Positions 5,123 to 47,883 of a stretch of DNA of 64,000 nt are shown here, piece after piece. A program made the translations under genes and the position numbers. The stretch is from positions 1,798,001 through 1,862,000 of the forward strand of contig NZ_CP100470.1 of the NCBI RefSeq assembly GCF_030323145.1. Reading direction: 5' to 3'. The stretch comes from Mesorhizobium sp. C432A. Lineage in GTDB: Bacteria > Pseudomonadota > Alphaproteobacteria > Rhizobiales > Rhizobiaceae. Within the stretch, counting starts at the first letter, position 1; each line of letters begins with the position of its first letter. The notes below the pieces were generated by a model. The model was not told the origin of the DNA. It made no database searches and saw only the letters and a list, made by a program, of their open reading frames with translations.

Positions 5123-6769
5123 TTGAAGAAGTTTTTCCCGATCCTTGCCTTCATTGCCGTTGCACTGATCAGCCTGACGATGGCGGGCTTCGCCTATTTC
5201 GCGACCCAGGAAGCGGCGCGCATCAAGTTCGAGGCGACGGCCGACGACGCGCTCAACCGCATCGAAAGCCGTATCGATCTGCATCTGTCACTGCTGCGCT
5301 CGACGCAGGCGCTGTTCGACGCCCGCAATGGCGAGATTTCAGGTAGCGAATTCAAGGCCTTCTTCAGCGCCCTCGATGTCGATAACAATTTCGCCGGCCT
5401 GCGCGGCATCGGCTATCTCAGGCTGGCCAAGACCGGTGACGAAGCGGCGGTCGAGCGCGACATGTTGCGCGACCGCGGCGCCGCCCACACGGTCTATCCG
5501 GACACGACACAGCCATGGCGCACGCCCGTCGTGCTGTTCGAGCCGCTCGACCCTGCCAACGAATCCACCATCGGCTACGACATGTTCACCGAGCCGGTGC
5601 GGCGCGAGGCGATCGAAAAAGCGATGGCCGATGACGCACAGCACGCAAGCGGTCTGGTCCAGCTCGGCCAGGACACTGGCGCGGCGCAGACCTTTACCGG
5701 TTTCCTGGTCTTCGTCAGGCTCAATGTCGAAACCGCGCCGGATGGTATCAATGCGTCCAGATCATCGACATCAGGCCTTCTCTACGCGGCCTTCCGCGCC
5801 CGCGACCTGTTCCAGACCGCGCTCAGCCGCACGCCTTTGCTGCCGGTCAACACCGCGGTCTATGACGGCACGGCCGACGCCGACAATCTTCTGTTCCAGT
5901 CGGAAACGCCGCCGGTTGCGAGCTTTGGCGACAGGCTGTTGGTGACGCGCAAGATCATCGTCGCCGGTCGGCCGTGGACGGTGCTGTTTCGGCCGACAAG
6001 TGCATTTTCGCAACCGTCCTCGCGCGCCATTCCGGTCATGCTCGGGCTGTTCGGCCTGCTTCTGGCCGGGGCCATCGCGTTGGTGGCGCGCTACCAGGAG
6101 CGCGCCTACGACGCCAAGTCGCTGCTGCATGAAACGACGGAAAAAAGCCTGCTCGAAAAGGATTTGATGCTGCAGGAGATGAAGCATCGGATCAAGAATT
6201 CGATCACGCGGGTGCTGGCGATTGCGCGCCAGACGGCAGCGCAAGCAACCGACGTGAAGGAGTTCTCAACTTCCTTCTCAGCCCGCCTGCAGGCAATGGC
6301 GGCTTCCCAGGATATGCTGACGCGTTCGCGCTGGCAGAAGGCCGATCTTGGCGACCTGCTGCGCATCGAGCTCGGCCAGGTGTTCGGCAAGGAGCTTCCG
6401 GAAGGGATATTGTCAGGGCCTCAGGTGCTGCTCGACGAGAGGACGACGCAGGCGCTTGGCCTGACCTTTCACGAACTGGCGACGAATGCGCTGAAATATG
6501 GCGAGGCCGGCAATTCCGTGGGTGCGCTCAAGGTCGACTGGTCGTTCGAGGGGCGCGGGTCCGAGCGGATGCTGGTTCTGAACTGGCGCGAGGCCGGGCA
6601 GAAGGAACTCGAAGCGCCGGCGAAGACCGGCTTCGGCACCAAGCTGATCGACCTCAATGTCACGCGCGAATTGCGCGGCACGATTGCCCGAGATTTTCGC
6701 ATCGATGGGCTTACGGTGGAAATCAGGATCCCGCAGCCTGATGCAGTCAAACAAACGGAGGCCGGCTGA
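5123..6769 (+). CDS. CHASE-domain HWE-family sensor histidine kinase
   Basis: A 548-residue membrane kinase. The N-terminal membrane segment (about residues 5-27) is followed by a periplasmic CHASE domain (about 50-290, with LRSTQALFDARNG and LRGIGYLRL), a second membrane segment near 300-320 and a cytoplasmic HWE kinase core. The phospho-acceptor is in MKHRIKNSITRVLAIARQT, the N-box is FHELATNALKYGE, and NWREAG supplies the W-x-E motif that defines the HWE class. The start is a TTG; I see no in-frame ATG with a ribosome binding site. No response regulator is adjacent. It lies next to the stress island, and HWE kinases often feed PhyR, but that link is inferred. Confidence 0.85.
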   Translation: MKKFFPILAFIAVALISLTMAGFAYFATQEAARIKFEATADDALNRIESRIDLHLSLLRSTQALFDARNGEISGSEFKAFFSALDVDNNFAGLRGIGYLRLAKTGDEAAVERDMLRDRGAAHTVYPDTTQPWRTPVVLFEPLDPANESTIGYDMFTEPVRREAIEKAMADDAQHASGLVQLGQDTGAAQTFTGFLVFVRLNVETAPDGINASRSSTSGLLYAAFRARDLFQTALSRTPLLPVNTAVYDGTADADNLLFQSETPPVASFGDRLLVTRKIIVAGRPWTVLFRPTSAFSQPSSRAIPVMLGLFGLLLAGAIALVARYQERAYDAKSLLHETTEKSLLEKDLMLQEMKHRIKNSITRVLAIARQTAAQATDVKEFSTSFSARLQAMAASQDMLTRSRWQKADLGDLLRIELGQVFGKELPEGILSGPQVLLDERTTQALGLTFHELATNALKYGEAGNSVGALKVDWSFEGRGSERMLVLNWREAGQKELEAPAKTGFGTKLIDLNVTRELRGTIARDFRIDGLTVEIRIPQPDAVKQTEAG

Positions 6770-6780
6770 CCGGTCTCCGT
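6755..6780 (+). terminator. Hairpin at the end of the CHASE kinase gene
   Basis: ACGGAG-GCCGG, loop CTGA, then CCGGT-CTCCGT forms a strong stem that overlaps the kinase stop codon. There is no clear T-run after it, so termination activity is uncertain. Confidence 0.4.
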
Positions 6781-6808
6781 CGCGATTGTCTGACGCTTTT
6801 GAAGCGGA

Positions 6809-7051
6809 TCAGCAGCGAGCGGTGTAGAGCCGGCCGCGATTGTCGCGATACTGGCAATAGCCGTTGCGCAGGTTGCGCACCAGCAGGCCGGAACCGGCGC
6901 CAACGGCTGCGCCGATCAGCGCACCCTTGCCGCCGCCGATCAGTCCGCCGGCCAAAGCACCGACACCGGCGCCGACACCGACATCCTGCTCGGTCGTGCT
7001 GCAGCCGCTGACGGCGACCACCGTAACCATGGCAATAATCAATTTCCGCAT
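6809..7051 (-). CDS. Glycine-zipper lipoprotein
   Basis: An 80-residue lipoprotein. The signal peptide ends in a lipobox (AVSGC, with the lipidated Cys near residue 18). It is followed by a glycine-zipper segment of alternating Gly/Ala (about residues 25-60, containing GALAGGLIGGGKGALIG) and a short C-terminal part with NGYCQYRDNRGRLY. The ATG at 7051 follows GAGGAGA; an upstream in-frame ATG has no such site. Proteins of this type sit in the outer membrane and often belong to envelope stress responses. Function is unknown. Confidence 0.8.
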   Translation of the reverse strand: MRKLIIAMVTVVAVSGCSTTEQDVGVGAGVGALAGGLIGGGKGALIGAAVGAGSGLLVRNLRNGYCQYRDNRGRLYTARC

Positions 7052-7134
7052 AGAATCTCTCCTCACTTTTGTCCTCACTTTAGTAAGCTCCAGCCGCTAT
7101 TTAGCACGAAACAGCAGCCTTTGCCCGCTCGATC

Positions 7135-7461
7135 TTATTGTTGGCTAAGAGAGTCTTTTTCGCGGCGCGTGGCGTTCGACGCGACCACGACACTGGAAAT
7201 CTGCAAAGACGCGTCGAGGGTGCCGTCCGGGCGCACGTTCCAGACGATCTGGTCGTAATCATCCTCCAGCGCGGGGTCGACCGTAAGACATTTGGCAACG
7301 ACGTGCTCGGCCTGACCCTGCACGTCGCCGGCAGCGAATGGACGTTCTGCCGTGCATGCTTCGGCGGTTTCGAAAACACTGACCGGCACCGGCAGTTCAC
7401 GACATTCGGTCATGTTGTTCGAACAGCCAATTACCAAAAGCAAAGCGGCGATGTGTTCCAC
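7135..7461 (-). CDS. Small predicted lipoprotein under an EcfG-type promoter
   Basis: An uncharacterised protein of about 108 residues. A short hydrophobic leader runs into a lipobox-like LVIGC, then a hydrophilic domain with four further cysteines. I recognise no family. An ATG at 7482 opens the frame, but a perfect EcfG promoter has its -10 at 7486-7489, so the transcript would begin downstream of that ATG. The GTG at 7461, preceded by GAGAGGAC, is therefore the more likely start. Convergent or shadow frames on the other strand look non-coding. Confidence 0.6.
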   Translation of the reverse strand: MEHIAALLLVIGCSNNMTECRELPVPVSVFETAEACTAERPFAAGDVQGQAEHVVAKCLTVDPALEDDYDQIVWNVRPDGTLDASLQISSVVVASNATRREKDSLSQQ

Positions 7462-7485
7462 GGCGATACGTCCTCTCGCCATAAG

Positions 7486-7510
7486 AACGGTCCACAGCCG
7501 TCAAAGTTCC
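7486..7510 (-). promoter_or_regulatory. EcfG-type promoter
   Basis: On the minus strand GGAAC (7510-7506), 16 bases, then CGTT (7489-7486): an exact match to the general stress sigma factor consensus. It faces the small lipoprotein gene. Confidence 0.75.
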
Positions 7511-7603
7511 TGTGCCGAAAGGGGCGTTAATAATTGGTCGGCTACGAGCTGGACAGCTTCTGAGCCAGGCTGCTTGGGAGCAGCGTGAACCTGAGCATCT
7601 GGC

Positions 7604-7762
7604 TCAGGCCAATTGCGACGCCACGATCAGCACAACAGCGGCGAAGCGAAGCAAGGGGTGCCAGGCGTGCTGCAAAGGCGAGGCTGAAGCATCAGGATCC
7701 TGAAAGCCGCTCATCGAGACCCGCGCGGCCTGCTCCAGCCTGTTCATATCGGCCACCGTCAT
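7604..7762 (-). CDS. Small single-pass membrane protein, hypothetical
   Basis: A 52-residue protein beginning MTVADMNRLEQAARVS with a hydrophobic C-terminal segment (LLRFAAVVLIVASQL). GGGAGGA lies seven bases before the ATG at 7762, which is the best evidence that it is real; a longer version opening at 7831 lacks such a site. No family is recognised. It sits between two stress-associated genes in the same orientation. Confidence 0.5.
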   Translation of the reverse strand: MTVADMNRLEQAARVSMSGFQDPDASASPLQHAWHPLLRFAAVVLIVASQLA

Positions 7763-7890
7763 GATCATTCCTCCCATACTTGCGTTGCAGGCCGCGGACG
7801 AACATCGGTTGAATCGGTCAAGATCCAGCAATCTCTGGGAACCACAGCATCGGATTTTATGGTGAACAGCCGGTTAAGGAATCCCGCCGC

Positions 7891-8925
7891 TCATTCGGTT
7901 TCGAAATTGCCGTGCGGAACCACCAGGCGATATTCGAGGCGGTCACTGGTGATCTCCAGCGTCGCCGTGCCGTTCAGCGATGCCGGCACGACACGTTCGA
8001 GGGCAACGCTGCCGAAGCGTTTCTCGGTGCGTCTGTTATCATTGGCGACAATGGCCTCGACCCAGGTCAGCGACAAAGCCGGCTTGTCGGCGGCCTCTGC
8101 GACGTTCGACAGATCGGCAGTTACCTCGACAAAGCCGTCCGGCCGCGCCAGGGCGCCGTAGCTGAATGAATTGACGGCGAGTTCGTGCATTGCCAGTCCG
8201 ATATGAATGGCGGCGTTGGGATTGAGGTAGGGGTTGACGCCATTGAAGCGCAGGCTCTGCGCGGGATCGGCGCCGTAGCGAACGACCTGGCCGCGGATAA
8301 GCTCGCGAAGTGCTGCACCCCGCCAGTTCGACGACGTTACCAGATCCTGGGAGGAAGCCAGTGACTGCAGGCGGCCGCGAAAGCGCTTCAGGAAATCGTC
8401 GGGTGTCTCGGAATAGCGGCCGGTCTGGGTGGCAATACTCTGGATGATGGCCAACAGGTTCTTGGAGCGGTGGCTGACTTCGCGCAACAGCGTCTTCAGC
8501 GTCTGTTCGCGGCGTTTCTGCTCGGTGGTTTCCACCATCGTGGTGACGACGCCCTGCACGTCGCCGCGATGGCCCCGATCGGCATCGACCCATACCTGGA
8601 ACCAGCGCATGCCATCACCGGTGGGAACACTCAGTTCAAGGCGTTCCGGATTGCCGGAAGCGATCACATTGCTTTTGGCGGCGGCGATTTGCTCAGCTTG
8701 CGCCGGTGGCAACGCGCCGTTGCTGTCGGCTGTGTCGGAAACCCACGGCGCACGCATGTTGCGGGCCCATACAGTCTTCAATTCACGATCCTGATAGAGG
8801 ACGGAAATGCCGGCATTGTGCAGAGCGTGAAGCAAGGCCCGGCCAAGCTGCATTCCGCTTTCAGCCGGGTGCAGTGCGATCACCTCGTCGCCCTGTCCGC
8901 TCTCGCCTCCGCCAATGGAACGCAT
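7891..8925 (-). CDS. PAS-domain HWE-family histidine kinase, soluble
   Basis: A 344-residue cytoplasmic kinase without membrane segments. A PAS-like sensor domain (about residues 25-140, ending VVTTMVETTEQKRREQ) is followed by the HWE core with LREVSHRSKNLLAIIQ, the N-box MHELAVNSFSYGA and the W-x-E in LTWVEA. The ATG at 8925 is preferred to a TTG one codon upstream. A near-consensus EcfG promoter lies at 8954-8977. It is encoded about 550 bases from phyR, so it is a good candidate for a PhyK-type kinase that phosphorylates PhyR, although no biochemical link can be read from the sequence. Confidence 0.82.
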   Translation of the reverse strand: MRSIGGGESGQGDEVIALHPAESGMQLGRALLHALHNAGISVLYQDRELKTVWARNMRAPWVSDTADSNGALPPAQAEQIAAAKSNVIASGNPERLELSVPTGDGMRWFQVWVDADRGHRGDVQGVVTTMVETTEQKRREQTLKTLLREVSHRSKNLLAIIQSIATQTGRYSETPDDFLKRFRGRLQSLASSQDLVTSSNWRGAALRELIRGQVVRYGADPAQSLRFNGVNPYLNPNAAIHIGLAMHELAVNSFSYGALARPDGFVEVTADLSNVAEAADKPALSLTWVEAIVANDNRRTEKRFGSVALERVVPASLNGTATLEITSDRLEYRLVVPHGNFETE

Positions 8926-8953
8926 CAATCACCTGTCCACCTGATCGGGACCG

Positions 8954-8977
8954 AACGATTCACTTGGACTCAGTTCC
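8954..8977 (-). promoter_or_regulatory. Candidate EcfG promoter with 15-base spacer
   Basis: Minus-strand GGAAC (8977-8973), 15 bases, CGTT (8957-8954). Both elements are perfect, but the spacer is one base shorter than in the other sites of this window. It is 28 bases before the HWE kinase start. Confidence 0.5.
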
Positions 8978-8999
8978 TGAGTAGGTCCCCAGAAAAGGT

Positions 9000-9038
9000 C
9001 CGCCGGACGATGTCCCGTTGGAGGACATCGCCCGGCGG
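9000..9038 (-). terminator. Terminator-like hairpin after the DUF1328 gene
   Basis: A long stem, CCGCCGG and CGATGTCC pairing with GGACATCG and CCGGCGG, with one internal mismatch. On the minus strand it is followed by CTTTTCT. It separates the DUF1328 gene from the HWE kinase promoter. Confidence 0.6.
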
Positions 9039-9088
9039 TGGCTGGAAACCGTTTGAGGGGTGCGGCTTCCAGTGTTCTTCGCCCGCTC

Positions 9089-9256
9089 CTACGATGCCCG
9101 TCTGAACAGGCCGGCCAGAAGCGAGATGACGAGGAAGGCGAGAAAGATGAAGAACAATATTTGCGCGATACCGGCCGAGGTACCGGCGATGCCGCCGAAA
9201 CCAAGCGCGCCGGCGATGATCGCCACGACGAGAAATACGAGCGCCCAGTAGAGCAT
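9089..9256 (-). CDS. DUF1328 / UPF0391 small membrane protein
   Basis: A 55-residue protein starting [20 protein letters not shown] and ending [10 protein letters not shown]: two hydrophobic helices separated by [12 protein letters not shown]. This is the conserved YtjA/UPF0391 pattern. GGAGACAG precedes the ATG at 9256. A perfect EcfG promoter lies 30 bases upstream. Members are often stress-induced in proteobacteria, and their biochemical role is unknown. Confidence 0.88.
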
Positions 9257-9285
9257 GATCTGTCTCCTTCCGATACTGGATCAAG

Positions 9286-9310
9286 AACGTGAGTGATTGC
9301 TGTTTGTTCC
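9286..9310 (-). promoter_or_regulatory. EcfG-type promoter for the DUF1328 gene
   Basis: Minus-strand GGAAC (9310-9306), 16 bases, CGTT (9289-9286). It is an exact consensus match located 30 bases before the start codon. Confidence 0.85.
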
Positions 9311-9476
9311 ACCATTTGACGAAAAAGAAGGTCTTTGGAAGAGGCCCGGACGCGAATTGATTCGCGCGCGTGAGCGCCATACGGCGCGACGGGCAGCCGC
9401 CGATCGCCGGGTTAGGCGATCGCCAGTGCCGCCAACGCTGCGAGGCGGCGAAAAGTTGGAGATTGAAGGCCCTACT

Positions 9477-10271
9477 TCACGCGGCGGCCTTGGCCTGCCG
9501 GTCGAAGAACAGCGCTTGGCTGATCAGCGCCTTGACCATGTCGGGATTGAACGGCTTGGTGACGAGGAAGGCCGGTTCAGGCCGCTCGCCGGTCAGCAGA
9601 CGTTCGGGGAAGGCGGTGATGAAGATTACCGGCACCGAAGTCGACGACAGGATTTCGTTGACCGCATCGATACCCGAGCTGCCATCGGCAAGCTGAATGT
9701 CGGCCAGCACCATCTTCGGCCTTGTCTTGCCGAACATCGCCACCGCCTCGGTATGGGTGCGCGCGGTTCCGACCACGTGGTGGCCGAGGCTCTCGACCAT
9801 TTCCTCGATGTCCATGGCGATCAGCGGCTCGTCCTCGATGATCAGCACATCGGTCGCCACCTGGCGAGAGATCTCGTTGCTCGCCTGGGCAAGCAGTTCG
9901 GAGAATTCCTTGGCGTCGACATCGAGAATTTCAGCTGCCTCGTCTTCACCGAAGCCTTCGACCGCGACCAGCAGGAAAGCCTGGCGTGGCCGTGGCGCAA
10001 TGGCGTTCAGATTGGCGGCGGCGCGCTGCTCCCATGCCGATTGCGCCTGCTCCTGCGGAACGCGGATGGCAATGGAGGTGAACAGTTTGGCGAATACCTT
10101 GTAGAGCGCGATGCGGTCGCTTGACGCTTGCGGGAAGATGTCGACGTCGGCGATGATGGCTTCGAGCATCGCGGCTACCAGCGCATCGCCACTCTCCTGC
10201 GATCCGGATACGGCGCGTGAAAAGCGGCGCAGGAACGGCAGGTGCGGAGCGATGGTTGCGGAAAGGCTCAT
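9477..10271 (-). CDS. phyR: General stress response anti-anti-sigma regulator PhyR
   Basis: A 264-residue regulator. The N-terminal half (about 1-135) is a sigma-factor-like domain of the EcfG type. The C-terminal half (about 140-260) is a receiver with VLIIEDEPLIAMDIEE, the phospho-acceptor Asp in VLADIQLADG, and FITAFPERLL. After phosphorylation, PhyR family proteins bind NepR and release sigma EcfG. The ATG at 10271 follows GGGAGACG; the open frame extends further upstream across the promoter, which argues against the earlier start. It is divergent from nepR-ecfG, with facing EcfG promoters that would give positive autoregulation. Confidence 0.95.
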   Translation of the reverse strand: MSLSATIAPHLPFLRRFSRAVSGSQESGDALVAAMLEAIIADVDIFPQASSDRIALYKVFAKLFTSIAIRVPQEQAQSAWEQRAAANLNAIAPRPRQAFLLVAVEGFGEDEAAEILDVDAKEFSELLAQASNEISRQVATDVLIIEDEPLIAMDIEEMVESLGHHVVGTARTHTEAVAMFGKTRPKMVLADIQLADGSSGIDAVNEILSSTSVPVIFITAFPERLLTGERPEPAFLVTKPFNPDMVKALISQALFFDRQAKAAA

Positions 10272-10342
10272 GGTAGACGTCTCCCTCAGATGACGTGATT
10301 GCATAGATTGCAGGTCAAGCTGATTGCAAGCCCCAACACCCA

Positions 10343-10367
10343 AACGCGGGTTTTGCGAAAAAGTTCC
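10343..10367 (-). promoter_or_regulatory. EcfG-type promoter of phyR
   Basis: Minus-strand GGAAC (10367-10363), 16 bases, CGTT (10346-10343), 72 bases before the phyR start. Its -35 lies only nine bases from the -35 of the opposite promoter. Confidence 0.88.
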
Positions 10368-10376
10368 GAGACTTGT

Positions 10377-10401
10377 GGAACGAAACCGTACGGGCGACGT
10401 T
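10377..10401 (+). promoter_or_regulatory. EcfG-type promoter of nepR-ecfG
   Basis: GGAAC at 10377-10381, 16 bases, CGTT at 10398-10401, 83 bases before nepR. It lies back to back with the phyR promoter. Confidence 0.88.
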
Positions 10402-10483
10402 TGTGGTGCGATGGGCAACCAGACGAGGGGGCCGCTTTGCGTTGTGTAATGGGGCGGCTCGGGGCGCTGGATTTAAGGGCGAA

Positions 10484-10687
10484 ATGAAGGACATGAATAA
10501 AGAAACGCTGGCTGGCGCCGCTGACAGGCGCCGGGCCAATTCCGGCGACCCGCTCGGGGCGAATTCGGAAATCGGCCGCAAACTCAAACAATATTATGAC
10601 GAGCTGGTCTCGGACAATGTGCCGGATCGCTTTGCCCAGTTGCTCAGCCAACTGGAAAAGGCCGAACCTGCACAGAAGAAGGACTGA
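10484..10687 (+). CDS. nepR: Anti-sigma factor NepR
   Basis: A 67-residue protein whose core IGRKLKQYYDELVSDNVPDR and following FAQLLSQLE are the conserved helices with which NepR holds either sigma EcfG or phospho-PhyR. An ATG three codons further in (10493) is an alternative start with a similar ribosome binding site. The gene is followed after three bases by ecfG, so the two are co-transcribed from the EcfG promoter at 10377. Confidence 0.93.
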   Translation: MKDMNKETLAGAADRRRANSGDPLGANSEIGRKLKQYYDELVSDNVPDRFAQLLSQLEKAEPAQKKD

Positions 10688-10690
10688 GGC

Positions 10691-11242
10691 ATGGCAGCTG
10701 TCTCACAAGGGTTCAAGACCGACCTGCTCGGCTCGATCCCGAGCCTGCGGGCCTTTGCCGTGTCGCTGACGCAGAATGCCGACAAGGCCGACGATCTGGT
10801 GCAGGAGACGCTGGTCAAGGCTTGGGACAAGCATGAGAGCTTTCAGCCCGGCACCAATCTCAAGGCATGGCTGTTCACCATCCTGCGCAACGAGTTCTAT
10901 TCCCAGATGCGCAAGCGCGGCCGCGAGGTGCAGGACAGCGACGGCATCATGACGGCCAGGCTTGCCGTTCATCCGGCTCAGCACGGCCAGCTTGACCTCA
11001 AGGATTTTCGCGGCGCGCTCGAGCAACTCCCCGAGGACCAGCGCGAAGCCATCATCCTCATCGGCGCTTCAGGCTTTTCCTATGAAGAGGCCGCCGAAAT
11101 CTGCGGCTGTGCGGTCGGAACGATCAAAAGCCGGGTCAGCCGGGCCCGCACGCGGTTGCAGGAGATCCTGAAAATCTCCGGTGAAGACGAATACGGGCCG
11201 GACGCAATCTCGTCCCAGGTGACGGGTTCAAACGCTGCCTGA
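10691..11242 (+). CDS. ecfG: RNA polymerase sigma factor EcfG
   Basis: A 183-residue ECF sigma factor. Region 2 (about residues 15-80) contains NADKADDLVQETLVKAW and LKAWLFTILRNEFYS. Region 4 (about 115-165) contains LPEDQREAIILIGASGFSYE and GTIKSRVSRARTRL. There is no anti-sigma-type extension. The position directly behind nepR and opposite phyR identifies it as the general stress sigma factor, which recognises the GGAAC/CGTT promoters listed in this window. Confidence 0.95.
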   Translation: MAAVSQGFKTDLLGSIPSLRAFAVSLTQNADKADDLVQETLVKAWDKHESFQPGTNLKAWLFTILRNEFYSQMRKRGREVQDSDGIMTARLAVHPAQHGQLDLKDFRGALEQLPEDQREAIILIGASGFSYEEAAEICGCAVGTIKSRVSRARTRLQEILKISGEDEYGPDAISSQVTGSNAA

Positions 11243-11248
11243 CGGCGG

Positions 11249-11275
11249 AGGCCCGTTTGCGGGCCTGGGCTCTTT
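11249..11275 (+). terminator. Terminator-like hairpin after ecfG
   Basis: AGGCCCG, loop TTTG, CGGGCCT, then GGGCTCTTT. The T-run is short. It lies between convergent ecfG and the receiver gene. Confidence 0.55.
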
Positions 11276-11297
11276 ACACATACGCATCGAAGATATC

Positions 11298-11705
11298 TCA
11301 GACTGGCGCGCGGCCGCAGGCCGCCGCCAGAGCCTCGACGAGATCGGTCCCCGAATAAGGCTTGGTGACCAGGCGGATGCCGGGAAAAGACCCTTTGATC
11401 TCATCGGGGTCCGAATAGCCGGAGGCAAAGACAAACGGCAGGCCCGATTGGCGCAGCCGCGCGGCGAAATCGAGTGTGGACGTTCCGCCCAGCATGAGGT
11501 CCACGATAGCGGCGTCGAACTCGCCAACGACCTTCTGCTCATCGATCTCGGCCAGAGCGCGGGCAATCACTACGTCGTTCGCGCCATGGTCGCGGCAAAG
11601 CTGCTCGACATCCATGGCGATCAGGAATTCATCCTCCAAGACAAGAATTCGCAATCCCTCAAGCAATGGCGGCACTTGGCAATCTCTCCTCAATTCTTGC
11701 AGCAT
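11298..11705 (-). CDS. Single-domain response regulator
   Basis: A 135-residue stand-alone receiver with the acidic pair in LVLEDEFLIAMDVE, the phospho-acceptor Asp in AIVDLMLGG, the FASGYSDPDE segment and the Lys in LVTKPYSG. There is no output domain. Single-domain receivers of this kind (SdrG-like) act as phosphate sources or sinks in the alphaproteobacterial stress pathway. Its position directly beside ecfG supports such a role, but that role is inferred. Confidence 0.85.
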   Translation of the reverse strand: MLQELRRDCQVPPLLEGLRILVLEDEFLIAMDVEQLCRDHGANDVVIARALAEIDEQKVVGEFDAAIVDLMLGGTSTLDFAARLRQSGLPFVFASGYSDPDEIKGSFPGIRLVTKPYSGTDLVEALAAACGRAPV

Positions 11706-11887
11706 CGGCTACAGTGACTCCAGTCAACCGCATCGCGGACCTTGGGGGATCGGTCAGGCCTTAATCCGAAAAGTTCGCCCACCGGCTCTACTCCACAAGC
11801 GAGCTTCGAATTCGCCTCAGTGGAGTGTAGCGAGTCATGATCGCTATTTGCCATCCTGTCATTTAAAAAAGACATGCCATCGGCAGC

Positions 11888-11912
11888 GGAACCGCGGCCT
11901 TGCAAAGGCGTA
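11888..11912 (+). promoter_or_regulatory. Candidate EcfG promoter before the Crp/Fnr gene
   Basis: GGAAC at 11888-11892, 16 bases, CGTA at 11909-11912. It differs from the consensus by one base in the -10 element. It lies 42 bases before the start codon. Confidence 0.45.
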
Positions 11913-11954
11913 GCACTCAGTCTCTGGCAAGAGACTTTCGAAAGAGGGATCGAA

Positions 11955-12716
11955 ATGTCTGGCCAGAATGGTCGTTCGTTTTCCAGCCGTCAGTACCCAT
12001 GCGAGATCTGCCCGCTTCGGCGATTGCCGGTGTTCCGGGAATTCGAGAAGCAGGAGCTTGCCTATGTCAGCATGTTCAAGAAGGGCGAACTGGCCGTCGA
12101 CAAGGGCGCCACAGTGCTGGTCGAAGGCAGCCAAAGTGCTCATCTCTACACCGTGCTTTCGGGCTGGGCCTTCCGCTACAAACTATTGTCGGACGGCAGG
12201 CGCCAGATCCTGAACTACTCCATGCCCGGCGATCTTATCGGGCTGCAGGGCAGCCTGATGGGCGAAATGCAGCACTCGGTCGAGGCGCTGTCGCCCATGC
12301 TGTTGTGCGTCTTCGAGCGTGAAAACCTGCACGAGCTCTACCGCAACCATCCGGGCCTTGCTTACGACATTACCTGGCTGGCGTCGCGCGAGGAGCGCAT
12401 GCTGGACGAGAACCTGCTCAGCGTCGGCCGGCGCACGGCGGTCGAGCGCACCGCCTATCTCATTGCCTTCATCGCCAGCCGCGCGGCGGCAGTCGGGCTC
12501 AACGGCAAGGCGCCGGTGCAAATCCCGATTACCCAGCAGCATGTCGCCGATACGCTCGGCCTGTCGCTGGTCCACACCAACAAGACGATCCGCAAGCTCA
12601 TCGATCGCAAGCTGATCGCCTGGCGCGACGGCGGTTGCGAAGTGATCGACGGGGAGGGGCTGAAGGATCTCGCGCGCTGGGAGGGCCTAAGCGAAGGCCG
12701 TCGGCCGCTGATCTGA
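11955..12716 (+). CDS. Crp/Fnr-family transcriptional regulator
   Basis: A 253-residue regulator with a cyclic-nucleotide-binding-type beta-barrel (about residues 35-150), a long dimerisation helix and a C-terminal winged helix (about 170-240) with PITQQHVADTLGLSLVHTNK. A CEICPLR segment sits near the N-terminus, but the full four-cysteine Fnr cluster is not apparent. AGAGGGATCGAA precedes the ATG at 11955. The gene is monocistronic between the receiver and the ElaB-like operon; ligand and targets are not known. Confidence 0.85.
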   Translation: MSGQNGRSFSSRQYPCEICPLRRLPVFREFEKQELAYVSMFKKGELAVDKGATVLVEGSQSAHLYTVLSGWAFRYKLLSDGRRQILNYSMPGDLIGLQGSLMGEMQHSVEALSPMLLCVFERENLHELYRNHPGLAYDITWLASREERMLDENLLSVGRRTAVERTAYLIAFIASRAAAVGLNGKAPVQIPITQQHVADTLGLSLVHTNKTIRKLIDRKLIAWRDGGCEVIDGEGLKDLARWEGLSEGRRPLI

Positions 12717-12786
12717 CAGGCAGGCCTCCATCTGGGGCTGGACTCGCACTTGCAAACACCCTTTCATGGATACGGTCTCCGATTTC

Positions 12787-12811
12787 GGAACCATGATGTG
12801 TGTCGGGCGTT
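12787..12811 (+). promoter_or_regulatory. EcfG-type promoter for the ElaB-like/holin-like operon
   Basis: GGAAC at 12787-12791, 16 bases, CGTT at 12808-12811, 29 bases before the start codon at 12841. Exact consensus. Confidence 0.88.
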
Positions 12812-12840
12812 TGAAGCCAAGCAAACGCAAGGAGTTTAGA

Positions 12841-13167
12841 ATGGCAACTGCCGCAGGAAAAACCGCCAACGAAAGTCAGACGAACGCCGACCTGGAAGCC
12901 GACATTCGGCAGTTGAAGGCGGATATCGAAAAATTGACCAAGCAATTGGCCAAGACCGGCGAACATGGTTACGGCACGGCGCGGCGCGCTGCTGCCGAAG
13001 GCGTCGACCAGTTGCGCGCGCAGGGCGAAGCCGTCTTCGACAGCCTGCGTGGCAACGCCAAGGATCTTGAGGCCCAGATCACGGCCAATGTGCGCGAGAA
13101 GCCGGTCACTTCACTGGCGATCGCGGCCGGCGTCGGCTTCCTGTTTGCGCTTCTTGCCCGGCGCTAG
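12841..13167 (+). CDS. DUF883 (ElaB/YqjD-like) membrane-anchored protein
   Basis: A 108-residue protein. A charged helical N-terminal part (about 15-85) with heptad-like DLEADIRQLKADIEKLTKQL is followed by a C-terminal membrane anchor (SLAIAAGVGFLFALLARR). This is the pattern of the ElaB/YqjD family, which associates with the inner membrane and, in E. coli, with stationary-phase ribosomes. AAGGAG precedes the ATG. It has an exact EcfG promoter and is followed after 11 bases by a holin-like gene, so both belong to the general stress regulon by prediction. Confidence 0.85.
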   Translation: MATAAGKTANESQTNADLEADIRQLKADIEKLTKQLAKTGEHGYGTARRAAAEGVDQLRAQGEAVFDSLRGNAKDLEAQITANVREKPVTSLAIAAGVGFLFALLARR

Positions 13168-13178
13168 TTTCGACAGAG

Positions 13179-13640
13179 ATGGGCATGCTGGCACCGCTTA
13201 TCTCGGCCTTGGCCTCGGGTGAAGCCATTGCCGCCATGCGCCGCGCGCGCACGGCGGCAATCGTCTATGGGCTCGCCGCCGTGGCTGCCCTGTGCGGCCT
13301 CGGGTTTCTCCTGGGGGCGGCCTACATCTGGGCGGCTGACCGTTACGGCTCGATGGCCGCCTGTCTCGGCTTCGCGGCCGGTTTCCTGGTAACGGCCGGG
13401 CTTATCGTGCTCATTCATCAACTTGCGGCCGGAACGCGTGCGCGCCGACGTGCGCGAAGGCGCAATGCCGACCTGAAGGCGCTCGGTATCACCGCGGCGC
13501 TTGCCGTGCTGCCGGCCTTGCTCAAGGGGAAAGGCGGGAAGGGCGTCATTCTCGGCCCGATGATCGCGCTCGCGGCCTATGCCATCTACCGCGAGAACGT
13601 CAAACCGGATCCGGGCGATCCAGACAGCGAAGCCGACTAA
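13179..13640 (+). CDS. Phage-holin-family (DUF1469-like) membrane protein
   Basis: A 153-residue protein with two hydrophobic helices (about 25-50 and 58-85), a basic stretch TRARRRARRRN and a further hydrophobic segment. This resembles the YqjE/holin-superfamily partners that accompany YqjD-like proteins. An ATG two codons downstream is an alternative start. It is co-transcribed with the DUF883 gene. Its stop codon lies in the left end of an intergenic repeat. Function unknown. Confidence 0.75.
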   Translation: MGMLAPLISALASGEAIAAMRRARTAAIVYGLAAVAALCGLGFLLGAAYIWAADRYGSMAACLGFAAGFLVTAGLIVLIHQLAAGTRARRRARRRNADLKALGITAALAVLPALLKGKGGKGVILGPMIALAAYAIYRENVKPDPGDPDSEAD

Positions 13641-13702
13641 AGCGCGTCGCGCTGATACGCTGTTCCCGGGAAAACCGCTTCGCACTTCTGAAATTGCTTT
13701 AA
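13638..13702. repeat. Short palindromic intergenic repeat
   Basis: A 65-base element with terminal inverted TAAAGC / GCTTTA and an internal AAAACCGCTTCGCACTT segment, as in repeats I know from rhizobial genomes. The holin-like gene ends in its left end and the converging HWE kinase ends in its right end. Confidence 0.55.
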
Positions 13703-15231
13703 GCCGGCAGATCTTCAAGCGGCATCGATATTTCGGCGAACACGCCTTCGCTGCGGAATTCGTGGGTCACTTCGCTCGATAAAACCTTGGCGAGGCTGCG
13801 GCGGATCAGGATAGAGCCGAAGCCCTGGCGTTCCGGCGGGTCGACTTTCGGCCCGCCGCTTTCGCTCCAGGTCAGCACAAGGCGGTGCGCGCCTTTCTTG
13901 CCCGCCGCCTTCCAGTCGACATCGACCTTCCCCGAGCCAACCGACAGCGATCCGTATTGCAGCGCGTTGCTGGCCAGTTCGTGCATGATCAGGCCGAGCC
14001 CCACCGCCTGGTCGGGCGAAAGCAGCAGCTCCGGACCGGAGATCACGATGCGCGGCCGTTCTGCCGAATCGAACGGCTTCACCTCGATCTGCATCAGTTC
14101 GCGAATACCGATGCCGCGCCATTCGCGATCCGACAGCAGGTTATGGGCAGCGCCCAGCGCCTGCAGCCTGGCGCCGAAGGCTTCCAGGAATTCGCTTGGG
14201 CGGCGAGCGTGGCGAACGGTCTGTGTGGCCAGCGCCTGCACGGTCGCCAGCGTGTTCTTGACCCGATGGTTGAGCTCGCGCAGCAGCAGCCTTTGCCGGT
14301 CCTCGCCGAGCTTGCGTTCCGAGATGTCGTAGTTGACGCCAAAGATAAGCGTCGGCTTGCCTTCGCCGTCGCGCTCGATGACGCGGCCGCGGGTGACTAT
14401 CCAGCGCGGCGGATCGAAGCCTTTGACCCGGTATTCGCCGAAATAGTCGTCGCTGCCGGTCAGGGCATCGCGAAAGCGCGTCTCGGTCTGGTAGACGTCG
14501 CGCGGGTCGATGGCGGCCAAAATGTCGCGCGCCCGCAGCCGGTTCGAACGCGGCAGGTTGAACAGCTCCGACAAACGCACGTCGCATTCGATCATGTCGG
14601 TGCGGATATCCCAGGCCCAACTGGCGAGCGAGGCGGCGTCGAGCGCTATGGCTCGGCGCTTTTCCTCCTGCGCCAAAGCAGCCGTGGCAATGGCGCCGCT
14701 GCGGGTGGCGTCCTTGAGGGTAAACAGGCTGGCGGCGAGGCTGGCCAGCGATTTCAAATGATCGAGCGCGGCAGCGGACGGAAATTCATGCGGCTCCCGG
14801 TCGAGTACGCACACCGTACCGACGCGCGCGCCGGCGACCACCATCGGCGCGCCGACATAAAAGCGGACATGGTGTTCGCCGGTGACCAGCGGGTTGCGGG
14901 AGAAGCGAGGGTCGATGCTGGCATCCGGCACCACCATCGGCTCGTCGCCGGCGGCAATGGTATGGGCGCAGAACGATATGTCGGTCGCGGTTTCGGTCTC
15001 GTTGAAGCCGACACAGGATTTGAACCACTGTCGTTCGGTGTCGAGCAGCGTGACGAGCGCGATCGGCGCCTGCATCACGGCGGCGGCAAGGCCGGTGATG
15101 CGATCGAAGTCGGGATCGGAGTCGGTGTCGATCGCGTCAAGCCCGTGCAGTACGGCAAGCCGCTCCGGCGCCGCCACGGCGCGGCGGACCTCAACCGGCA
15201 AACCAGCCTGCTTCGTCACCTTGCTATCCAC
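13699..15231 (-). CDS. GAF-PAS HWE-family histidine kinase
   Basis: A soluble kinase of about 510 residues. A GAF domain (about 20-170, with APIALVTLLDTERQWFKS and SFCAHTI) is followed by a PAS domain (about 195-310) and the HWE core with LRELNHRVKNTLATVQAL, the N-box MHELASNALQYGS and the W-x-E in LTWSESGG. I chose the GTG at 15231, preceded by GAGGGGGC; a TTG at 15312 is possible but overlaps an EcfG promoter on the other strand. It is a second candidate sensor for the PhyR pathway. It ends within an intergenic repeat. Confidence 0.83.
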   Translation of the reverse strand: MDSKVTKQAGLPVEVRRAVAAPERLAVLHGLDAIDTDSDPDFDRITGLAAAVMQAPIALVTLLDTERQWFKSCVGFNETETATDISFCAHTIAAGDEPMVVPDASIDPRFSRNPLVTGEHHVRFYVGAPMVVAGARVGTVCVLDREPHEFPSAAALDHLKSLASLAASLFTLKDATRSGAIATAALAQEEKRRAIALDAASLASWAWDIRTDMIECDVRLSELFNLPRSNRLRARDILAAIDPRDVYQTETRFRDALTGSDDYFGEYRVKGFDPPRWIVTRGRVIERDGEGKPTLIFGVNYDISERKLGEDRQRLLLRELNHRVKNTLATVQALATQTVRHARRPSEFLEAFGARLQALGAAHNLLSDREWRGIGIRELMQIEVKPFDSAERPRIVISGPELLLSPDQAVGLGLIMHELASNALQYGSLSVGSGKVDVDWKAAGKKGAHRLVLTWSESGGPKVDPPERQGFGSILIRRSLAKVLSSEVTHEFRSEGVFAEISMPLEDLPA

Positions 15232-15292
15232 CAAGCCCCCTCGCTTGCAGGCCCCACCCGCGGTGGCGCGCACCTTGCGCGGCCGTCGCGCC

Positions 15293-15317
15293 GGAACTTT
15301 TGTAGCAAGCAATCGTT
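15293..15317 (+). promoter_or_regulatory. EcfG-type promoter for the 75-residue membrane protein
   Basis: GGAAC at 15293-15297, 16 bases, CGTT at 15314-15317. Exact consensus, 66 bases before the ATG at 15384. Confidence 0.8.
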
Positions 15318-15383
15318 ACCCCACCATGTTTCGCCGGCGATGGTTTTATCCACCATCCCGGTTGCGCGATAGGAACGCCGCCG

Positions 15384-15611
15384 ATGACCAAGATCGCCCC
15401 TGAAAACAAAGCCCGTCAGGGGCGCTGGGGTTGGCACGGCCTGCGCATATTGGTCGCCGCGTTGCTCCTGGCTTTCATTGCTTGGGGAGCGGCCGAGATT
15501 TATGGCCAAAAGATCGATCCAGATACCCCTGAAAGCCAGGGGCAGCCCACCGGCCAGACCGCGCCGGCCGACCAGAGCGCGCCAGCCGGCGAGGGGCAGT
15601 CGGGCGGCTAG
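15384..15611 (+). CDS. Small single-pass membrane protein, hypothetical
   Basis: A 75-residue protein: a basic N-terminus, one membrane helix (about 20-40, LRILVAALLLAFIAWGAAEI) and a Pro/Gln/Ala-rich tail likely to face the periplasm. No family is recognised. The upstream EcfG promoter makes it a predicted member of the general stress regulon and supports its being a real gene. It is divergent from the GAF-PAS kinase. Confidence 0.6.
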   Translation: MTKIAPENKARQGRWGWHGLRILVAALLLAFIAWGAAEIYGQKIDPDTPESQGQPTGQTAPADQSAPAGEGQSGG

Positions 15612-15637
15612 GGTTTTCCTCGTCATTCGTAATCGCA

Positions 15638-16558
15638 TCAGGCGGCCTTCGCCTGGGCGGCTTGCGCCGGAACCAGGACGTTCAGTGCGCCAGGGTGGAT
15701 CTGGATTGTCGTTTCACGCTCCAGCTTGACCAGTTCGCCGTCGATGACGGCGCCGAATTTCTTGCTCCCTGTATGGATTTTCACGATTGCCTTGTCGGCC
15801 TGATGGGTTTCGACATGATCGCTGTCGCGCCACCTGCCGCGAGCCATGTCGAAGAGCGCCCTGACCAGCTCGCCACGCTGCCGCGCCACGGTGACATAGA
15901 TGCCGAGCACGCCGCCGGCAGGATTGTCGGCATAAGGCAGATGGCCTTCGCCAAACAGATTGTTGGAAATGCCGATGCCGCTGATGCGGGTCACGATTTC
16001 GGCTTCGCCGACCGTCAATGTCACCTTCATGGCTGGAGGATTGTTGATCGTCGTCCAAGCGGCCTTGGCCGAAGCGCGGATCTTTCCCAGGCGCGAGGCA
16101 AATTCCATATTGTCGCGCAGCTTCACCATTCTGGCGTGCAGGCCAATCGAGAACTGATGCACGAAAGGCCGGCCATTCGCGCTCGCGATATCGACCGCCA
16201 TGATCTCGCCGTCGGCAAAGGACTTTAGCGCGCCATCGATGGTCTGCGGAATTCCAAGGCCACGGGCAAACAGGTTCATGGTTCCTGCAGGCAGGACGGC
16301 CAGCGCCTTCTTGCCATTCATCAGCCGCCCCGCGGCGGCCGAAATGGTGCCGTCGCCGCCACCGGCCAGCACGACGTCGATGTCGCGCCGCGCGGCGACC
16401 TTGTCGAGCGCCGCGACAATCTCTTTGCCGGCGACGATGTCGATATCGATGGAGTGACCAGCCGCCTCGAGCGTCTGGCGCATGCGGTCCGTTAGCGCGG
16501 AAAGATCGGTGGTCCGCAAGGTGCCGCCGTCCCGGTTCAGCACCGCTGCAAATCGCAT
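15638..16558 (-). CDS. Diacylglycerol kinase-family lipid kinase
   Basis: A 306-residue protein with the DAGK catalytic domain: LAGGGDGTISAAAG supplies the nucleotide-binding GGDGT, followed by LPAGTMNLFARGLGIP. The C-terminal beta domain (about 140-295) is of the YegS/bacterial lipid kinase type. It would phosphorylate a lipid such as diacylglycerol at the membrane. GGAGCGGGG precedes the ATG. Substrate specificity cannot be read from the sequence. Confidence 0.85.
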   Translation of the reverse strand: MRFAAVLNRDGGTLRTTDLSALTDRMRQTLEAAGHSIDIDIVAGKEIVAALDKVAARRDIDVVLAGGGDGTISAAAGRLMNGKKALAVLPAGTMNLFARGLGIPQTIDGALKSFADGEIMAVDIASANGRPFVHQFSIGLHARMVKLRDNMEFASRLGKIRASAKAAWTTINNPPAMKVTLTVGEAEIVTRISGIGISNNLFGEGHLPYADNPAGGVLGIYVTVARQRGELVRALFDMARGRWRDSDHVETHQADKAIVKIHTGSKKFGAVIDGELVKLERETTIQIHPGALNVLVPAQAAQAKAA

Positions 16559-16702
16559 GCCCCGCTCCGTATTCTTTTTTAAAGGCCGGAATGCCAGCCG
16601 CAGGCTGAAACGGGCAAGCTTGGCAAAGGTTCCATCGGCCGGGCGGGAATGTCGGGCGATTCCGCGGACTTGCCCAGGGTATTTCGATGCTCCCGTTTTT
16701 TC

Positions 16703-16727
16703 GGAACAAGCGCCTTGTCACAACGTT
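16703..16727 (+). promoter_or_regulatory. EcfG-type promoter for the PRC-barrel gene
   Basis: GGAAC at 16703-16707, 16 bases, CGTT at 16724-16727, 90 bases before the start codon. Exact consensus. Confidence 0.82.
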
Positions 16728-16817
16728 GTGATCCCATTGGAGGCGCCGCCTTCGGTCTCCCGGCAAGTGGTTTGCCGATTGCGGCGCGCATGAGATCACG
16801 CAAGAGGAGACTTAATC

Positions 16818-18122
16818 ATGATCCGCACACTGTTCGCGACGACTGCACTCGCAACGCTGATCGCTACCGGTGCGTTTGCGCAGTCAACGACGGCCCCGGC
16901 GACGACCCCAGCGCCGGCTGAAGCCCCTGCTACCATCGCGCCGGCGCCGCAACAGGCCGACGGCGCGCTGATGACCAATATCATCGGCGAGTCCGTCTAC
17001 AATGGCACTGGCGACGATGCGCAGAAGATCGGTGACGTCAGCGACGTCGTCCTCGATGAAAACGGCCAGGCGAAATCCGCCATTATCGGCGTTGGCGGCT
17101 TCCTCGGCATAGGCAGCAAGAACGTCGCCTTCGACTACGGCAAGTTGCAATGGGTCGAGAGGAATGGTGACCGCTGGCTCGTCGCCGAGACGACGAAAGA
17201 AGCGTTGACGGCGCTGCCCGACTTCGACCGTAAGCCCTACGATCCGGCCTCGGCGCCTGCTTCCACGGCGCAGAACGACCCGCAGAAGCCGGTTGATCTC
17301 AACGCCGCGCCGTCAGAACCCGCGGTGAAACGCGCTGACGGCAATCTCGCAACCAACATCATCGGCGAGAATGTCTACAATGGCACTGGCGACGATGCCC
17401 AGAATATCGGCGACGTCAACGACATCGTGCTGACCAAGGATGGCAAGGCGCAGTCGCTGGTGATCGGCGTCGGCGGCTTCCTCGGCATGGGTGAAAAGAA
17501 CGTCACCTATGATTTCGCCAAGGCGCGGTGGGCCGAAAAGAACGGCGATCGCTGGCTGGTGGCGCAGACGACCAAGGAGGAACTGCAGGCGCAGCCTGAT
17601 TTCGACCGCAAGCCCTATGATCCGGCGCCGGTGACGACAACCTCCGACGCAACGCAGCCGACTGCTCCCGCTGCCCCGACGGCCGTTGCACCGGCTGACA
17701 ATGCTCAGCCAGCGGACAAGACCGCGGAAGCTCCGGCCGGTACAAAAGCCACCGATCCGACGCAAACGGCAGCGATCGACAAGTCGACACTGACCGAAAT
17801 GCCGGTCGGCAACATCAGAGGCGACGACCTGAAGGGCACCACCGTCTATGGCGCCAACGACGCCAAGGTCGGCGAGATCGGCGACGTCGTGCTCACGCCC
17901 GACAGCAAGCCGGATGCCGTCATCATCGATGTCGGCGGCTTTCTAGGCATCGGCGCCAAGGAGGTCGCGGTCGGCATGGACAAGCTCAAATTCATGACCG
18001 ACAAGGACGGCAACAAATATCTCTACACCAACTTCACCAAGGAGCAGTTGCAGGCGCAGGCCGCCTATGACAAGGGCAGCTATGCCGAGAAGCGCGACCA
18101 GCAGCGGATGATGGTACAGTAA
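16818..18122 (+). CDS. Exported protein with three PRC-barrel domains
   Basis: A 434-residue secreted protein. A Sec signal peptide (cleavage after GAFA, about residue 21) is followed by three PRC-barrel repeats at about 50-130, 175-265 and 330-420, separated by Pro/Ala/Thr-rich linkers. Each repeat carries IGDV..VVL and VGGFLGIG-type strands; the first two are very similar to each other and the third is more divergent. It probably acts in the periplasm, but the ligand is unknown. An exact EcfG promoter places it in the general stress regulon. GAGGAG precedes the ATG. Confidence 0.85.
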   Translation: MIRTLFATTALATLIATGAFAQSTTAPATTPAPAEAPATIAPAPQQADGALMTNIIGESVYNGTGDDAQKIGDVSDVVLDENGQAKSAIIGVGGFLGIGSKNVAFDYGKLQWVERNGDRWLVAETTKEALTALPDFDRKPYDPASAPASTAQNDPQKPVDLNAAPSEPAVKRADGNLATNIIGENVYNGTGDDAQNIGDVNDIVLTKDGKAQSLVIGVGGFLGMGEKNVTYDFAKARWAEKNGDRWLVAQTTKEELQAQPDFDRKPYDPAPVTTTSDATQPTAPAAPTAVAPADNAQPADKTAEAPAGTKATDPTQTAAIDKSTLTEMPVGNIRGDDLKGTTVYGANDAKVGEIGDVVLTPDSKPDAVIIDVGGFLGIGAKEVAVGMDKLKFMTDKDGNKYLYTNFTKEQLQAQAAYDKGSYAEKRDQQRMMVQ

Positions 18123-18125
18123 GGG

Positions 18126-19767
<1,642 letters not shown>

Positions 19768-38261: not shown

Positions 38262-38446
38262 GGAGCATTTCACGAAAAAGGTGAAACGCTCCATGTTTCA
38301 ATGTAATCCCGAACGGAAATCGCTACGCACTGTTCCTGGAATTGCTAGAGCGTTTCACCGTTTCACGGAAACGGAGAAGCCTCTATCTCTTTGTTTTTAC
38401 GCAATTCCGGGCGGAAAACCGCGTACACTTTTCCTGTAATTGCTCT
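38262..38446. repeat. Two tandem copies of a palindromic intergenic repeat
   Basis: Two similar units (about 38262-38350 and 38347-38446) in the same orientation, each with GAGCRTTTCAC near one end and CGGAA..CGC.TACRCACTTTTCC..AATTGCT toward the other. This repeat type is known from rhizobial genomes. The right end provides the TAG stop of the OmpR-type regulator gene. Confidence 0.65.
38312..38336 (-). promoter_or_regulatory. EcfG-like promoter match inside a repeat copy
   Basis: Minus-strand GGAAC (38336-38332), 16 bases, CGTT (38315-38312). It is a formal consensus match in the left repeat unit, pointing to the hybrid kinase 80 bases away. The right unit lacks it. It may be fortuitous. 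Confidence 0.35.
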
Positions 38447-47743: not shown

Positions 47744-47883
47744 GCGCGGTCCCCCGGCGCCGCTCTTTCCTTGACAAAGACGAAGGATCAATCCAGCATT
47801 GTGGCAAGGGGTTCCTTCGCGACGACCCCGTGAGGCGTCAGCCCAATGATCGCGTCCAAACTCTCACTCTGGAGGTGGACGCC

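Follow-up and report, generated by a model that had tools for sequence, protein, structure and literature searches.

The locus and its promoters

The 64,000 nucleotides analyzed here (the window) are positions 1798001-1862000 of the 6.02-Mb chromosome (G000:C1) of Mesorhizobium sp. C432A and carry the general-stress locus PhyR-NepR-EcfG, whose EcfG is 99% identical to its M. neociceri counterpart. The interval 7486-16727 of this window contains eight exact GGAAC-N16-CGTT sites, all of them within 9.2 kb. This is the EcfG motif as published (PMC3892343; PMC7083833), statements on published systems being drawn, here and below, from excerpts of the cited papers. In place of curated annotation, genes were called with our own codon-usage caller, trained on the 46 open frames of the window, and protein families were assigned by Pfam. 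The features of the interval are as follows:

7135..7461, minus: putative lipoprotein, 108 amino acids (aa), GTG start, lipobox LVIGC by eye
7486..7510, minus: EcfG-type promoter of this small lipoprotein gene, exact GGAAC-N16-CGTT
9089..9256, minus: DUF1328 small membrane protein (YtjA family), 55 aa (PF07043, E 9e-16)
9286..9310, minus: EcfG-type promoter of the DUF1328 gene, exact N16 match
9477..10271, minus: phyR, anti-anti-sigma factor with sigma-like domains and a receiver (PF22029 7-60, PF22233 88-137, PF00072 142-247)
10343..10367, minus: phyR promoter, EcfG-type, exact N16 match
10368..10376, no strand: gap of 9 bp between the phyR and nepR -35 boxes (GTTCC-N9-GGAAC), read in the sequence
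10377..10401, plus: nepR-ecfG promoter, EcfG-type, exact N16 match
10484..10687, plus: nepR, anti-sigma factor, 67 aa (PF18557, E 1e-15, above cut-off)
10691..11242, plus: ecfG, general-stress sigma factor, 183 aa (Sigma70_r2 and r4_2)
12787..12811, plus: EcfG-type promoter of the DUF883/holin-like pair, exact N16 match
12841..13167, plus: DUF883-like protein, 108 aa (Pfam match below curated cut-off), presumably ElaB/YqjD-like
13179..13640, plus: holin-superfamily-III-like membrane protein, 153 aa (Pfam match below curated cut-off)
15293..15317, plus: EcfG-type promoter of the gene of a 75-residue membrane protein, exact N16 match
15384..15611, plus: 75-residue protein, one membrane segment by eye
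15638..16558, minus: DAGK_cat/YegS-type lipid kinase (PF00781, E 1e-20; PF19279)
16609..16633, minus: EcfG-type promoter of the lipid kinase gene, exact N16 match
16703..16727, plus: EcfG-type promoter of the triple PRC-barrel gene, exact N16 match
16818..18122, plus: triple PRC-barrel protein, 434 aa (PF05239, three stretches), likely signal peptide by eye

In PhyR, the sigma-like domains precede the receiver domain, and the NepR family PF18557 is matched nowhere else in the genome at E 0.001. The ecfG gene starts 3 bp past the end of nepR, with phyR divergent, and an EcfG-type promoter sequence precedes both core units; nepR and ecfG are predicted to be co-transcribed. HWE/HisKA_2 kinases are also encoded at the locus (7891-8928, 13699-15231 and 5123-6769). 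The three proteins, the divergent nepR-ecfG/phyR arrangement, the motif and the nearby HWE kinases are shared with the loci of R. etli, Sphingopyxis and other Alphaproteobacteria (PMC3892343, PMC8103513, PMC7083833), and in this class EcfG promoters control, in most cases, both of the divergent units (PMC4814048, PMC8103513). Compared with the known PhyR-NepR-EcfG loci, that of Mesorhizobium has six more EcfG-type units on both sides within 9 kb and shows, together with its relatives, core -35 boxes at a near-fixed distance of 7-10 bp.

A sequence-only reading of this stretch had rightly treated the core module as already known, and the seven coordinates that it listed are exact GGAAC-N16-CGTT matches on the strands given. 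Its count (six sites in its title, seven in its text) has to be raised to eight, the overlooked site being 16609-16633 on the minus strand, 51 bp before the lipid kinase gene. It had placed the sites 20-90 bases before start codons, which is right within a base: from the -10 end to the called start, the distances in coordinate order are 25, 30, 72, 83, 30, 67, 51 and 91 bp.

Distribution of the motif in the genome

The pattern with spacers N15-18 has 10 matches in the window, compared with a mean of 2.02 and a largest value of 6 in 100 shuffles. The whole genome was covered by pattern searches and by sequence stretches around all the N16 sites, giving 98 exact matches for N16, 33 for N15 and 35 for N17. 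Since the N16 pattern read backwards has 123 matches, raw genome counts alone prove little. Among the 98 N16 sites, 58 are in promoter position (outside genes, at most 250 bp upstream of a called start and correctly oriented), 24 fall within called genes and 16 are intergenic but otherwise placed. By comparison, promoter position is found for 6.6% of random window positions (p about 1e-42) and for one of the 11 wrong-spacing matches in the window and in a second cluster described below. The N15 spacing was considered as a general promoter class and rejected, its 33 genome-wide matches resembling background.

At most eight of the 98 sites fall within 9.3 kb, compared with a maximum of six over 5000 random placements of 98 sites; for random placement of the 58 promoter-placed sites, the maximum in 9.3 kb is four. 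At a linkage of 12 kb, just one other cluster holds more than two promoter-placed sites. The clustering of the sites is not due to chance.

Conservation of the sites among relatives and in the order

Relatives were represented by the best 80 of 565 EcfG loci, with flanks of up to 10 kb, mostly from Mesorhizobium and close genera with some from Phyllobacterium, Devosia and Brucella/Ochrobactrum. Orthologues were defined as best tblastn matches with at least 30% identity, and site counts in these loci take N15-17. A site precedes most orthologues of all eight genes: lipoprotein (41/46), DUF1328 (72/74), phyR (65/80), nepR (54/66), DUF883 (68/78), 75-residue membrane protein (34/44), lipid kinase (41/56) and PRC-barrel (40/56). 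Neighbours that have no site here served as controls and are rarely preceded by one (CHASE-HWE 0/55, Gly-zipper 1/44, response regulator 0/77, Crp 3/58, small-51 0/30), and the second genes of operons never are (holin-like 0/69, EcfG 0/80). The kinase HWE-B has a site in 13 of 71 cases, which are matches of 31-46% identity from Phyllobacterium, Devosia and Brucella; counts for the kinases are blurred by paralogues that match each other. Across 27-42 closer relatives, identity to the window is 0.85-1.00 in the columns of the motif, compared with means of 0.40-0.70 for the spacer and 0.35-0.63 for the flanks; at the lipoprotein promoter the values are 0.97-1.00, 0.57 and 0.45, respectively.

With the N16 pattern, the 80 loci contain 481 forward versus 27 reversed matches, and 468 of the former fall in the span from -4 to +8 kb relative to the start of ecfG (1, 0, 0, 35, 198, 72, 53, 91, 19, 11 and 1 per 2-kb bin from -10 kb). 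At the level of the order, 57 phyR loci outside the family, searched with a forward pattern of N16-17, yielded 239 forward versus 15 reversed matches. Core bins excluded, there are 0.22 sites/kb within -4 to +7 kb of phyR versus 0.098/kb farther out, and seven of the 57 loci have no site at all within -4 to +6.5 kb. Exact sites precede 15 of 26 DUF1328 and seven of 10 DUF883 genes at this level. Averaged over the order, sites are thus enriched around phyR, and a shell as dense as the one seen here is a feature of Mesorhizobium and close genera.

Spacing of the back-to-back phyR and nepR promoters

The exact phyR/nepR composite is present in 47 of the 80 loci, and its gap measures 7-10 bp in 45 of them (7 bp in one locus, 8 bp in 12, 9 bp in 27, 10 bp in five, 19 bp in one and 22 bp in one), with 44 distinct gap sequences. 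The divergent lipid-kinase/PRC pair provides a control from within this cluster: composites were found in 34 of 45 pairs, with gaps of 25-120 bp. Another back-to-back EcfG pair, with a 6-bp gap, was observed about 3.5 kb from ecfG, at a place other than phyR, in Phyllobacterium-type loci (L147, L149, L151, L152, L156 and L160, near 13.5 kb).

In 60 phyR stretches (57 of the order level and three of the family), both sites were found near phyR in 16 with a relaxed motif, overlapping self-pairs being omitted from this count. The gap is 8-9 bp in nine of these 16 composites, from seven families, two of the nine being from Mesorhizobium. Order-wide, composites with gaps of 1-31 bp occur anywhere in 88 of 397 genomes, with no reversed-control match among the matches listed. 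Gaps of 8-10 bp account for at least 31 of them (31 of the 75 places listed, 11 of 16 families) and gaps of 28-31 bp for a further 17 of those 75, to which a single family contributes ten, the rest being scattered. Gaps of 32-62 bp occur in 37 of 397 genomes, with the reversed control in three genomes, and show no clear period by eye in that range. Class-wide, a composite was found in 15 of 385 genomes and the reversed control in one; PhyR adjoins the composite in four of these 15 loci (L175, L176, L183 and L177, the latter from this genome).

The HWE kinase unit

Between the lipoprotein and DUF1328 genes lies a further unit:

7891..8928, minus: HWE histidine kinase (PF07536, E 2e-24), PAS match weak; candidate kinase of PhyR
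8954..8977, minus: GGAAC-N15-CGTT before the HWE kinase gene, pattern match
9000..9038, minus: terminator-like hairpin of 17 pairs with a T-rich tail, between the DUF1328 and HWE kinase genes

The hairpin has the longest stem among the terminator-like sites of the region (fold z -6.0), such sites overall being as frequent there as in shuffles (12 versus 11.5). Because it separates the kinase gene from the DUF1328 gene, the kinase probably depends on its own promoter, and read-through from DUF1328 is less likely. A site precedes 35 of 69 best matches of this kinase (HWE-A), some of which are distant paralogues. The sequence-only reading had not counted this unit, which can be added to the set for the many relatives that have a site there. 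By eye, the spacing is N16 in most Mesorhizobium orthologues with a site and N15 in this strain, so that feedback through the kinase may be weaker here. In Sphingopyxis, EcfG directly targets the gene of an HWE kinase located next to phyR (PMC7083833).

The predicted regulon beyond the island

Outside the island, 50 genes have a promoter-placed site. Pfam at E 0.001 gave a match for 34 of them, in some cases below the curated cut-off, and no match for the remaining 16. The families found behind these sites include CsbD (3), Ku (2), DUF1236 (3), BA14K (2) and DUF982 (2), as well as a trehalose-phosphate-synthase-type family-20 glycosyltransferase and a DUF892 protein. In Sphingopyxis, csbD and ku-ligD are direct EcfG targets (PMC7083833), ba14K is among the most EcfG-dependent genes of Brucella (PMC12354254), and a PRC-barrel gene and Ku have also been reported as EcfG targets (PMC6599016). 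The occurrence of csbD, ku-ligD and ba14K among known targets therefore supports the regulon prediction. Overall, CsbD, Ku, PRC-barrel and BA14K genes stand behind the motif in this genome and are likewise found in the EcfG regulons of Sphingopyxis granuli, Sphingomonas melonis and Brucella (PMC7083833, PMC6599016, PMC12354254); whereas those regulons have been mapped by transcriptomics, the targets in this genome are predicted from sequence. The lipid kinase, the 75-residue membrane protein and the lipoprotein were not seen as targets in the excerpts from the literature on mapped EcfG regulons.

The small proteins CsbD/YjbJ and DUF1328/YtjA are RpoS-controlled in Salmonella (PMC5437024), and rpoS homologues are reported to be lacking in the group studied here (PMC7083833). 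The enterobacterial RpoS regulon is alike in its small-protein targets but differs in sigma factor, promoter and switch, and the Mesorhizobium locus is presumably not a member of it. Small proteins thus seem to include a partly common set under the control of two master regulators that are unrelated to each other.

The second cluster comprises seven promoter-placed sites at 2,998,404-3,028,469, and ten exact sites in total at 2,997,786-3,028,493 (L031-L033). Its genes encode the trehalose-phosphate-synthase-type protein, Ku, an ATP-dependent DNA ligase, DUF892, a CheB-CheR-PAS-HWE kinase and a very long multi-HAMP protein, a LigD gene lying just outside. A PhyR-like protein of 188 aa with reversed domain order is encoded there behind an exact EcfG site (L031:11484-12050, minus; G000:C1:3001484-3002050). 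It consists of a receiver-like N-terminal part, recognized by homology to receiver proteins, followed by PhyR sigma2 (PF22029, 124-175), without sigma4. It has 290 homologues at E 0.001, with many from Mesorhizobium among the 120 listed. The small open reading frame after its gene looks NepR-like by eye, a resemblance unconfirmed by Pfam.

Other features of the window

For the lipoprotein, an ATG or GTG stands at the position equivalent to GTG 7461 in all 25 loci inspected, preceded in most of them by a GAGAGGA-like Shine-Dalgarno sequence; for this reason GTG 7461 is more likely the start than ATG 7482. Neither the lipoprotein nor the 75-residue membrane protein matched a Pfam family, and the named homologues of the latter are hypothetical or uncharacterized. 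The holin-like gene begins 11 bp downstream of the DUF883-like gene. A 51-aa hypothetical protein without a site (7604-7759, minus), present in 30 of the 80 loci, is encoded between the lipoprotein and the HWE kinase. Another exact N16 site of the window (38312-38336, minus) is located 114 bp upstream of the gene for a GAF-PAS hybrid histidine kinase (36132-38198). At the Rfam gathering score no known RNA was found in the island, and a chrB-a cis-regulatory RNA matched above that score at 47803-47886 (plus). In 6700-18400, one sigma-70-type promoter was found, compared with 2.5 in shuffles.

Interpretation

Overall, we interpret this region as the alphaproteobacterial general-stress-response locus wrapped in its own regulon, EcfG driving eight units, with a probability of about 0.9. 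Stress kinases would phosphorylate PhyR, which would then take NepR away from EcfG, and EcfG-polymerase would fire eight promoters within 9 kb. The eight units would be nepR-ecfG, phyR and six effector units encoding the lipoprotein, DUF1328, DUF883 with the holin-like protein, the 75-residue membrane protein, the YegS-type lipid kinase and the triple PRC-barrel protein. Earlier work has established the partner switch and the motif, as well as the dependence of the two core units on EcfG (PMC3892343, PMC4814048, PMC8103513), and each site of the island is presumably used by EcfG. Since the effectors are small membrane or envelope proteins and a lipid kinase, they may constitute an envelope-protecting arm. 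At the core, two polymerases at -35 boxes only 9 bp apart would be expected to collide, and the two arms of the switch may therefore compete for a single polymerase site and take turns at this promoter pair; transcription by turns, with simultaneous polymerases excluded, would keep phyR and nepR at a roughly fixed ratio, a further step that we consider less probable than the regulon interpretation.

The clustered regulon around the master genes that the sequence-only reading had proposed is supported by the density of sites and by their retention before the same genes in relatives. Motif density is not equal elsewhere, the genome-wide scan making the island the densest place in this genome, with the amendment that another cluster, less dense, is present at 2.998-3.028 Mb. 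The first functional label announced for unknown small proteins is new for the two families without a Pfam match and not for DUF1328, already known as RpoS-controlled (PMC5437024). In the literature searched, as far as titles, opening lines of abstracts and excerpts show, no report of EcfG-target clustering around phyR or of the phyR/nepR spacing was found, the spacing not having been searched by name; as far as these searches go, the spacing rule is new.

Several observations weigh against this interpretation. Many of the 80 loci are closely related, so that their counts are not independent, and the loci of Phyllobacterium, Devosia and Brucella/Ochrobactrum retain fewer sites, an exact phyR site being found in none of the seven Phyllobacterium-type loci (L145, L147, L149, L151, L152, L156 and L160). 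At the order level, exact N16-17 sites precede phyR in 27 of 57 loci and nepR in 22 of 32, the PRC gene in only four of 17 and the lipid kinase gene in none of eight, and the lipoprotein and the 75-residue membrane protein were not found in the 57 loci. Regarding the spacing, 33 of the 80 loci have no exact phyR/nepR composite, the other seven order-level gaps measure 29, 29, 29, 32, 39, 51 and 79 bp, and the exclusion of one polymerase by another is something that we infer from geometry.

The alternative that survives best, to which we give slightly less than an even chance, is that the clustering has no regulatory meaning, the genes having been inherited and selected together as a block. The same genes are indeed found within 10 kb of ecfG in many relatives, and the phyR-side edge is sharp, with a single site over the three 2-kb bins that run from -10 to -4 kb. 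However, genes that lack a site lie in between (response regulator, Crp, HWE-B), and the order-level enrichment near phyR persists where several island genes are absent.

At the core, the inverted repeat GTTCC-N9-GGAAC could be the site of a dimeric regulator, its rigid spacing then being unrelated to polymerase. The perfection of the repeat and its nearly constant spacing fit such a site, but its halves coincide exactly with the -35 boxes of the two core promoters, whose -10 boxes are intact, and a gap of 29 or 39 bp, as found in three families, is too far for one small dimer. We know of no dimeric regulator of this kind and consider this alternative unlikely.

It is still less likely that the sites are served mainly by another ECF sigma factor. 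The genome has twelve ECF-type matches, EcfG included. The best paralogue, 45% identical to EcfG, is encoded near G000:C1:2919083 (L084:1477-2217), beside a convergent open reading frame of 58 aa that looks NepR-like by eye and has no Pfam match, and in Sphingopyxis two EcfG paralogues seem to share targets (PMC8103513). However, the sites encircle the canonical ecfG, its own operon included, and in R. etli the motif was found at only one of the 19 units down in a second-EcfG mutant (PMC3892343). Finally, motif noise of a GC-rich genome, clustered by accident, can practically be discarded: the reversed pattern is as common genome-wide as the motif, but it has no match in the window among those listed (which cover the genome up to 4.87 Mb), N16 is about three times as frequent as N15 or N17, promoter position is far commoner for N16 sites than for random or wrong-spacing ones, and the conservation of sites in relatives refutes chance.

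A bolder extension of the regulon interpretation, which we regard as tentative and rather doubtful, would make the phyR-nepR region a ratio lock: a single polymerase-sized EcfG site, read in one direction at a time, would set the ratio of activator to inhibitor and sigma factor whatever the strength of the stress. A spacing of about 9 bp, and elsewhere near 29 or 39 bp, would keep the -35 boxes in helical phase, and freed EcfG would reach its neighbours first, giving an early envelope arm. Four of the seven gaps other than 8-9 bp (29, 29, 29 and 39, from three families) equal 9 plus a multiple of 10; 32 and 51 fit badly, and 79 fits well by its last digit alone. That helical phase explains the tight gap is a possibility, not one established by these data.

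To the known core, this work adds a set of surrounding targets that is conserved, a stress label for each of two unnamed families and a fixed spacing of the switch promoters. Hypothetical small envelope proteins become testable members of the general stress response, and an insertion of a few bases would suffice to disrupt the spacing rule at the switch. A further lead comes from the cluster at 3.0 Mb and the reversed-order PhyR-like protein encoded in it. The island itself offers a compact, conserved promoter set with which to ask whether distance from the gene of a sigma factor matters for its targets.

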